Positions 44,484 through 45,882 of a stretch of DNA of 64,000 nucleotides are shown here, in pieces. Below the pieces are notes generated by a model. It did not search any database and had not been told where the DNA came from. It saw only the letters and a program-made list of their open reading frames with translations. Source of the stretch: Bradyrhizobium sp. BR13661 (GTDB taxonomy: Bacteria; Pseudomonadota; Alphaproteobacteria; Rhizobiales; Xanthobacteraceae); the NCBI RefSeq assembly GCF_029892425.1, contig NZ_JARXWB010000001.1:1-64000 (forward strand). The letters run 5' to 3'. Within the stretch, counting starts at the first letter, position 1, and each line of letters starts with the position of its first letter. A program made the position numbers and the translations under genes.

Positions 44484-44789
44484 ATGATCCCCGGTGAACT
44501 CTTCATCCAGGACGGCGAGATCGAGCTCAATGCCGGCCGCAAGACGGTGACGCTGACCGTTGCCAACACCGGCGATCGCCCAATCCAGGTCGGCTCGCAC
44601 TACCATTTCTTCGAGACCAACCCGGCGCTGAAGTTCGACCGCAAGAAAGCCCGCGGCATGCGCCTCGACATCGCCGCCGGCACCGCCGTCCGCTTCGAAC
44701 CCGGCCAGACCCGCGACGTCCAGCTCGTCGCGCTCGCCGGCAAGAAGACCATCTACGGCTTCCGCGGCGACGTGATGGGGAAGCTGTAA
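44484..44789 (+). CDS. ureB: urease beta subunit
   Basis: 101-residue beta subunit, full length, starting [19 protein letters not shown] and containing the [14 protein letters not shown] motif (about 36-49) and [17 protein letters not shown]. The next expected gene, ureC, is displaced about 1.1 kb downstream by the DUF559 cassette and an HD-domain gene. Confidence 0.97.
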
Positions 44790-44843
44790 CGCAAGCCGAG
44801 GCGAGCGCAGTGATCTACAGTGAGGTGAGCACGCTGGCCGGGC

Positions 44844-44880
44844 TCCCTCCCCCCTTGCGGGGGAGGGTTGGGGAGAGGGG
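44844..44880. repeat. left 37-bp inverted repeat of the DUF559 cassette
   Basis: This GC-rich 37-mer is repeated in inverted orientation at 45245-45281 with a single mismatch. It is itself partly palindromic (CTCCCCCC-TTGC-GGGGGAG). Its last bases (GGGGAGAGGGG) sit just before the nuclease start codon and can act as its ribosome-binding site. Confidence 0.92.
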
Positions 44881-44881
44881 T

Positions 44882-45340
44882 ATGCCACACGACGAGGTCA
44901 GCGAGATTCAGCGCCATCGCGCCAGACGATTGAGGCGCGAGATGACTCGCGCGGAAACATTACTGTGGCGCCACCTGAAGGCTGATCGTCTCGCAGGCCT
45001 CGCTTTTCGCCGTCAGACCCCTATGGGCCGTTACATCGCGGATTTCGTCGCCCACTCATGCAAGCTTGTCGTTGAACTCGATGGCGAGAGTCACGATTCC
45101 GAGGAACGTATCCGCCACGATGAGGGACGTGACCAATGGTTCGCATCCCGCGGCTATCGCGTGTTGCGCTTCACCAATGACGAGGTGATGAAGAACCTTG
45201 AGGGCGTTGTTCTTTCAATCCTCGAAGCAGCGGAGCAAGCGGCACCCCTCTCCCTAACCCTCCCCCGCAAGGGGGGAGGGAACCCTTCCAGCGATGCGTC
45301 CCTAACCAACTGTGCATCCAACGGTGTCGAGGAAGCATGA
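44882..45340 (+). CDS. DUF559 / Vsr-like endonuclease-domain protein
   Basis: 152-residue protein of the DUF559 family, predicted to have the very-short-patch-repair type PD-(D/E)xK endonuclease fold. Visible landmarks: RAETLLWRHLKA (about 22-33), FRRQTPMGRYIADFVAHSCKLVVELDGESHD (about 44-74, given here as FRRQTPMGRYIADFV and LVVELDGESHD; catalytic Asp and Glu) and the C-terminal VLRFTNDEVMKNLEGVV. Start ATG 44882 follows the left inverted repeat; the right repeat encodes the tail residues SLTLPRKGGG. Biological role unknown. Its stop overlaps the next start (ATGA). It interrupts the normal ureB-ureC order, so recent insertion is likely. Confidence 0.88.
   Translation: MPHDEVSEIQRHRARRLRREMTRAETLLWRHLKADRLAGLAFRRQTPMGRYIADFVAHSCKLVVELDGESHDSEERIRHDEGRDQWFASRGYRVLRFTNDEVMKNLEGVVLSILEAAEQAAPLSLTLPRKGGGNPSSDASLTNCASNGVEEA
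45245..45281. repeat. right 37-bp inverted repeat of the DUF559 cassette
   Basis: Inverted match of 44844-44880 (36 of 37 positions), lying inside the 3' end of the DUF559 coding sequence. No target-site duplication is obvious next to either repeat, and no transposase gene lies between them. Confidence 0.92.
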
Positions 45341-45882
45341 CGACGCTCTCCGCCGTTCGCCTCATTTCGGAAGCTGCTGAGCTGGCTGCGCGGCGGCACA
45401 ATGGCATGGCGCGCAAGGGGCGGGGGAACGAGCCTTACATCAACCATCTTGCGGAGGTCGCGAACCTGCTGGCAACGGCGACCGAGGGTGCTGATGCCGA
45501 GCTCGTGGCGGCGGGCTGGTTGCACGATGCGATCGAGGATACCGAGACCACGCGCGAGGAGCTCGCGCAGAAATTCTCCGACCGCGTCGCCTCTCTCGTG
45601 GTCGAATGCACCGACGATATGAGCCTGCCGAAGGCCGAGCGACGGCGCCTGCAGGTCGTCGACGCGCCGAAGAAATCCGCGAGCGCAAAACTGATCAAGA
45701 TCGCCGACAAGATCAGCAATATCGGCGCGCGCATGCATGCCGATCCAACCGCCGACGAGCGTGACGATCTTGCCGACTACACCAGCTGGGCCGAGCAGGT
45801 CGTCGCCGGCTGCCGCGGCGGCAATGTCTGGCTCGATACGACATTCGCCAACGTGGTGCGACAAGCGAGGGCCTCGCAGTGA
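45337..45882 (+). CDS. MESH1-like HD-domain hydrolase
   Basis: 181-residue single-domain HD protein closely resembling MESH1 / small alarmone hydrolases, which remove pyrophosphate from (p)ppGpp (animal MESH1 also acts on NADPH). Visible metal ligands are His37 (PYINH), His63-Asp64 (GWLHDAIEDT) and Asp124 (IADKISN); the family block LPKAERRRLQV (about 97-107) is present. No synthetase, TGS or ACT domain, so it is not a full RelA/SpoT. It overlaps the DUF559 gene by 4 bases and precedes ureC by 37 bases, within the urease operon. Function is family-based; the link to urea use is inference. Confidence 0.85.
   Translation: MTTLSAVRLISEAAELAARRHNGMARKGRGNEPYINHLAEVANLLATATEGADAELVAAGWLHDAIEDTETTREELAQKFSDRVASLVVECTDDMSLPKAERRRLQVVDAPKKSASAKLIKIADKISNIGARMHADPTADERDDLADYTSWAEQVVAGCRGGNVWLDTTFANVVRQARASQ

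Follow-up and report, generated by a model that had tools for sequence, protein, structure and literature searches.

The urease operon of Bradyrhizobium sp. BR13661 carries a small nuclease gene enclosed by inverted repeats, which raises the question of what kind of unit this is, whether it is mobile, and what would move it. In the window (the whole stretch of 64,000 nucleotides that was analysed), inverted arms of 50 nt at 44832-44881 and 45244-45293 are 92% complementary, and their GC-rich inner 38 nt match at 97%, with the one mismatch that the earlier note had described. The enclosed gene matches PF04480 with an E value of 2.2e-38 and 130.9 bits (curated cut-off, 20.6), placing it in the DUF559 family; this match and the Vsr-type fold of the predicted protein model agree with its previous description as a Vsr-like DUF559 gene.

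The 3' end of the left repeat, GGGGAGAGGGGT, is a purine run located immediately 5' of the ATG at 44882, such that the left repeat can act as ribosome-binding site, and the right repeat is translated in frame as part of the nuclease C-terminus. Both roles had been proposed in the earlier note, and its conclusion that repeats and gene form one unit lacking a transposase was upheld. The claim that the gene separates ureB from ureC needs correction: the DUF559 stop codon (45338-45340) overlaps the ATG at 45337 of an HD-domain gene, and the order ureB - DUF559 - HD-domain gene (45337-45882, PF13328) - ureC means that DUF559 splits ureB from the HD-domain gene rather than from ureC. The HD-domain gene, which we take to be ppGpp-hydrolase-like, is kept between ureB and ureC in genus relatives. 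Because the outer extension listed in Table 1 is common to two host repeat copies, it possibly belongs to the unit.

Table 1. Features of the DUF559 unit and its neighbours, in positions of the window
Feature	Position	Strand	Remarks
ureB, left neighbour, host gene outside the unit	44484..44789	+	Reading frame; left flank conserved in genus relatives
Outer extension GTGAGGTGAGCACGCTGGCCGGG	44821..44843	+	By eye; common to host repeat copies L006 and L007; precedes the repeat in many genus relatives
Left triplex motif	44845..44879	+	Y-arm 44845-44853, loop 44854-44858, R-arm 44859-44867, tail 44871-44879; one mismatched triplet; 3' end abuts start codon
DUF559 nuclease gene (PD-(D/E)XK, Vsr-like)	44882..45340	+	152 aa from ATG; longer frame from GTG 44810
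Right triplex motif, inverted	45246..45280	-	Tail 45246-45254, R-arm (minus strand) 45258-45266, loop 45267-45271, Y-arm 45272-45280; in frame in C-terminal part
HD-domain gene, right neighbour, host gene outside the unit	45337..45882	+	PF13328; start codon overlaps DUF559 stop

The DUF559 protein is predicted to adopt the Vsr/homing-endonuclease fold: its model (mean pLDDT 89.9) matches NGO0050 (3hrl; Z 16.9), the catalytic domain of I-Bth0305I (3r3p; Z 13.1, second-best) and Vsr (Z 10.7), and an alignment of 34 sequences contains the invariant columns R, E, W, R, Q, D, F, E, D, G and R, acidic residues included. Vsr and I-Bth0305I share this fold at 18-22% identity to the DUF559 protein. Vsr is not known to be associated with repeats, and homing endonucleases act on one conserved target. 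Escherichia coli YcjD, which is 42% identical to the window protein, was earlier assigned to the PD-(D/E)XK superfamily (PMC1189080). VsrA of Caulobacter, another member of the family, triggers the SOS response when a methylase is mutated; a role in mismatch repair has been proposed for it, and it has been examined solely as a repair nuclease (PMC12907096). We rejected a phage homing or defence gene as an identity, as the window protein matched only 5 of 50,697 phage records (tblastn, 1e-5) and PADLOC returned nothing for it; the protein of a second unit, L149 (see below), gave only a weak DpdF match (E 0.0075).

Triplex motifs and their linkage to DUF559 genes

Each repeat consists of a pyrimidine arm, a loop, a purine arm, a short spacer or second hairpin, and a purine tail that mirrors the purine arm, which is the hairpin-plus-mirror-tail arrangement of the TM/PIT elements. 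An intramolecular purine-motif triplex requires just such mirroring of the R-arm by the tail, a relation that plain inverted repeats do not produce. Among 46 informative distinct arms (91 arms, 47 loci), the tail fitted better when read as a mirror than when read directly in 26, less well in 5 and equally well in 15; A was permitted to face A or T, and C to face T. Fit to a unit's own tail was 0.82, compared with 0.64 for other units' tails (71 asymmetric arms; sd 0.017; maximum of 1000 permutations, 0.69). The two copies in the window have one mismatched triplet each, which is also common among E. coli motifs (PMC4666352). Judging from its sequence, therefore, the window repeat is a member of a known family of triplex motifs, dispersed as gene-less pairs, a relationship that the earlier note had overlooked.

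Intrastrand triplex motifs (TM/TMECO, PIT elements) were described by Holder et al. 2015, with 23 copies in E. coli K-12, among them five inverted pairs; the E. coli motif folds as a triplex in vitro, and the paper offers nothing in favour of stable triplexes in living E. coli (PMC4666352). The same source reports triplex motifs from more than 260 genomes, links them to genome instability with no mobility gene nearby, and finds that E. coli TM loci differ between strains and are unstable. The terms DUF559, endonuclease, Vsr and ycjD are absent from its main text. Our search of the open full-text literature found no earlier description of DUF559 linked to inverted or triplex repeats; subscription papers and preprints lay outside its scope, so an earlier description elsewhere is possible.

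The left repeat has 64 matches in the host genome (E<=10; a few represent both strands of one site), and the palindrome pattern has 74 matches per strand, versus 13 for a reversed control pattern (up to 2 mismatches). Among the host matches listed, 30 places lie within one mismatch of the palindrome: 20 make up ten gene-less inverted pairs (separation 80-130 bp), four make up two gene-bearing pairs (the window and contig C44), and six are solitary under this pattern. The gene-less pairs have inner ends in common with one another (by eye), and two of the ten (C2:240235, C8:227983) have outward-directed tails. Repeats flank three of the four host DUF559 genes (window, C44 and C17), and the fourth, on C15 (L004, encoding a long divergent protein), has no flanking repeats of this kind (score 21).

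The linkage extends well beyond this genome, as the earlier note had suggested for other proteobacteria. Inverted repeats spanned the gene at 122 of 178 DUF559 loci, compared with 1 of 1347 random positions, when a local score of at least 36 across the gene was required and shuffles and random positions served as controls (swapped flanks were unsuited, since genomes share motifs and the score is inflated). They were present at 48 of 73 loci in a class sample (0/730 shuffles, 0/644 random positions), at 14 of 28 in a phylum sample (6/12 alphaproteobacterial, 8/16 other; no shuffle reached the threshold) and at 60 of 77 in a sample of named loci (1/770 shuffles, 1/703 random positions). The named loci included Alpha- (30/35), Gamma- (15/19), Beta- (4/8) and Deltaproteobacteria (3/5), Chloroflexi (4/4), Rokubacteria (1/1), Methylomirabilota (1/1), Planctomycetes (0/1) and unplaced sequences (2/3). 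Loci were chosen strongest match first (30 plus 40 further for the class, 28 for the phylum, 77 named), so that weak or fragmentary DUF559 matches are under-sampled; L004 was excluded from the 73, L078 and L084, found in two samples, were counted once, and L254, L272 and L296 were dropped from the 77 as contigs already seen.

A strict triplex motif (hairpin plus mirror tail) was located within 350 bp of the gene at 153 of 177 loci, compared with 15 of 612 background positions; one locus with a short flank was left out of this count. Ninety-two of the 177 loci have an inverted pair, 4 have motifs on both sides that all share one direction, 57 are one-sided and 24 have no strict motif within 350 bp, and none of the 612 background positions has a motif on both sides. 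Protein similarity and arm similarity are correlated (Mantel r 0.18, p 0.0005, n=121 loci). The possibility raised beforehand that these repeats occur only here, and never near other DUF559 genes, is thus contradicted by most of the loci sampled.

Among ten stretches from a plasmid collection, DUF559 genes were flanked in 4/4 from Deinococcus and clearly in 1/5 cyanobacterial plasmids. The Neisseria gonorrhoeae gene failed the inverted test; motifs lie on either side of it and point the same way. E. coli K-12 ycjD, which also failed the inverted-pair test, has a motif ~165 bp past its stop codon and a degenerate hairpin at the gene end, unlike the inverted pair of the window. The DUF559 genes of four cyanobacterial plasmids (L315, L316, L317, L318) adjoin DUF1156 or BREX methylase genes and possibly have a different role, and the inverted repeats around a DUF559 gene of Legionella anisa (L280:2826-3490) are 148 bp long, AT-rich and do not resemble the triplex motif.

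Motif content also varies with the presence of the gene. Across 240 alphaproteobacterial genomes, with kinship ignored, the canonical motif was found in 35 of 57 genomes with a strong DUF559 match versus 15 of 183 others (p 1e-15), and at least 10 motifs were found in 18/57 versus 1/183; the association holds in genomes of at least 2.5 Mb (32/48 versus 10/73). A strong match was defined as a best E value below 1e-20, with the 20 of 77 genomes having a weaker best match counted as DUF559-negative. Y1_Tnp, representing the RAYT superfamily, showed no association with the motif in the same 240 genomes (13/54 versus 37/186, p 0.57). Six of the 240 genomes (G127, G260, G294, G318, G346 and G347) have at least 5 motifs and no strong DUF559 match, including G260 with 26. 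The PF04480 search gave no match in the E. coli control genome although ycjD (L135:11408-11761) is annotated as DUF559, and counts of absence may therefore be too high.

Dispersed motifs resemble the flanks of the resident gene to differing degrees. In genome G302, which has no match to the canonical pattern, a 200-kb stretch contains 25 motifs, mostly in inverted pairs with outer ends 123-137 bp apart, and 20 of them have exactly the stem GGGGGAAGG, as at the flanks of its two DUF559 genes. Of 8 genomes, only 2 had dispersed motifs for which the flanks of their own DUF559 genes were the best fit (permutation p 0.03; 32 distinct motifs hand-picked among the matches listed). Two genomes yielded little: in 200 kb of G207 the flanking copies were the only ones, and 197 kb of G209 gave just the flanking copies of one gene and two weaker matches, although G209 has C-interrupted stems that the detector misses.

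Empty sites, relocated units and gene-less derivatives

At the urease site, 30 loci from 117 genus genomes were compared. Seventeen (host included) have the DUF559 gene, one has a solo motif (L060), one a gene-less pair (L061), one is cut by a contig end (L054), and ten have ureB and the HD-domain gene with no motif match. Different loci disagree on the boundary of the unit at this site: ancestral spacer precedes the unit in L041 and follows it in L044. Comparison of the ureB junction with strains lacking the gene, which had been proposed as a check, therefore reveals a polymorphic site with gene-free loci, and not a gene with repeats fixed in every Bradyrhizobium urease operon.

A unit in another genus (L149; 146 genomes compared), with arms of ~101 bp and located between convergent genes, provides further evidence of movement. 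At its site only 4-26 bp are present in 14 of 28 relatives with both flanks, and a gene-less pair is present in at least one of the remaining 14 (L210). Copies of the unit also lie at other sites in G533, G686 and G763 (alignments of 566-589 bp at 85-89% identity), with an additional shorter second copy in G686; in G763, the orthologous site is empty (5 bp) and the copy lies elsewhere. The earlier suggestion of a small mobile unit is borne out insofar as such units sit at different sites in related genomes. Within two related genomes (L310, L311), several kb between genes are packed with ~100-bp repeat arms and DUF559 units in a nesting cluster.

Gene-less pairs appear to derive from gene-bearing units. 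In one genome, G264, two pairs retain remnants of a gene-bearing unit, and these extend into DUF559 (L345, 221 bp; L350, 112 bp; 80%); the profile search also scored a DUF559 fragment in this genome; these remnants suggest that miniature forms arise by internal deletion, as MITEs do. Eleven pairs in G302 end at the hairpin and have unrelated flanks, and no target-site duplication of the kind left by insertion sequences and classical MITEs was found in them (longest shared flank word 3.2, versus 3.0, sd 0.28, when permuted). One gene-less host pair is present in 6 of 30 loci compared (host included); its exact empty site was not found among the 30, and no exact boundary can be drawn because the pair-less relatives have other sequence in the spacer. 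One Bradyrhizobium intergenic site (L175-L198) carries differing repeat families by species, e.g. CGTCATTGCGAG-type repeats.

What moves the unit

Linkage of gene and repeats and mobility of the unit are well supported; that the DUF559 nuclease itself moves the unit is what we infer. We consider it fairly probable that the unit is a small transposase-free mobile element in which a Vsr-fold nuclease gene is bounded by two, usually inverted, triplex motifs and the nuclease acts on the triplex-hairpin ends. Motifs would fold when DNA becomes single-stranded, for example on the lagging strand; the nuclease would recognise two folded motifs and nick at or near the hairpin base or the tail; the freed or copied segment would join elsewhere without a staggered cut; and the nuclease would also serve gene-less pairs in trans, much as REPINs are believed to depend on RAYTs for their movement. 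This reading is favoured by the linkage in several phyla, the covariation of tail and stem, the gene-less derivatives, the empty orthologous site and, in one genome, the hairpin-exact ends. Counting against it are the 24 motif-less loci among 177 and the 57 one-sided ones, the motif-rich genomes without a strong DUF559 match, own-flank fit in 2/8 genomes, the sparse copies in G207 and G209 and the position of ycjD outside an inverted pair, as well as the failure to see triplex formation in vivo in E. coli (PMC4666352) and the mismatch repair proposed for VsrA (PMC12907096).

A different, rather unlikely explanation makes DUF559 a repair nuclease, specific for structures or for mismatches, by which hairpin or triplex DNA at the repeats is trimmed or resolved; the repeats would spread by replication slippage, template switching or recombination, and linkage would be kept since the repeats regulate the gene or are protected by it. 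A fold close to that of Vsr, the proposal of VsrA as a repair nuclease with its SOS response in a methylase mutant (PMC12907096) and the instability of E. coli TM loci between strains (PMC4666352) would all fit; whole units at new sites with empty orthologous sites, and gene remnants in gene-less pairs, are not accounted for by such a role itself. It is less probable still that some other enzyme moves the repeats and DUF559 is a frequent cargo or repeat-tolerating gene. Genomes such as G260, with 26 motifs and no strong DUF559 match, and the 24 of 177 DUF559 genes without motifs are what a passenger would predict, but a motif lies near the gene at 153/177 loci versus 15/612 positions, the association is with DUF559 and not with the RAYT superfamily, the G302 repeats are variant-matched to the flanks of its DUF559 genes, and the gene fills nearly all of the unit.

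Homing, in which the nuclease cuts one conserved target and repair copies the unit in, as for the related-fold I-Bth0305I, strikes us as very improbable. The I-Bth0305I catalytic domain is the second-best fold match (Z 13.1) and the gene recurs at the ureB site (17/30 genus loci), yet the gene-less pairs of G302 and the host lie in unrelated flanks, contrary to a single target, and motifs flank the gene at many different loci.

Among known systems, our preferred reading, that of a nuclease acting on triplex-hairpin ends, bears comparison with REPIN/RAYT (REPtrons), which likewise combine short palindromic repeats, inverted gene-less pairs and a single nuclease gene flanked by them. RAYT belongs to the HUH Y1 tyrosine enzymes and its repeats bear a GTAG tag, whereas the DUF559 unit has a PD-(D/E)XK nuclease and no such tag (PMC3733652). 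The partner gene here is PF04480 rather than a Y1 HUH transposase, and in place of GTAG or CGTC the host repeats end in ...TCCCTCCCC / GGGAGGGAAC (by eye). PMC3733652 makes no mention of triplexes. Ordinary REPs moved by RAYT were rejected as the main reading by the Y1_Tnp control, and the CGTC- or GTAG-tagged REPs of PMC3733652 because the tag differs. The unit is best read as working like REPIN/RAYT yet unrelated to it, without that family's defining enzyme and tag.

TM/PIT elements, in turn, share with the DUF559 units the hairpin and mirror tail, the intergenic and dispersed location and the partly inverted pairing, and the E. coli copies beside ycjD are of this kind; PMC4666352 describes them with no partner gene, and DUF559 units have one. 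The repeats themselves are thus already known in E. coli and other bacteria, and the generality of the gene-repeat unit is new. The DUF559 enzyme is a strong candidate for what spreads triplex repeats. The chances seem about even that these units form a new class of mobile element, with a solo Vsr-fold nuclease and two triplex-hairpin ends, that is the source of the TM/PIT repeats in E. coli and many bacteria and in which triplex shape, not a sequence tag, is recognised as the end.

A dedicated nuclease partner, if true, would explain the origin and persistence of triplex-motif repeats, provide a mobile element without transposase or recombinase and a natural role for DNA triplex structure, and give a function to DUF559, which is listed in Pfam as of unknown function. 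The idea is directly testable in rhizobia and in E. coli K-12, which has ycjD and 23 motifs (PMC4666352). A clean ycjD-empty site was not found in E. coli; in three ycjD-less loci (H26, H30, H34), an efflux operon adjoins sapF or fabI, as PMC12817139 also states. In some E. coli, ycjD is broken, by an IS1 insertion in ETEC6 (L140) and by truncation in 2017-01-4CC (L139), and at least 80% of the ycjD region is present in 3362 of 5426 genomes.
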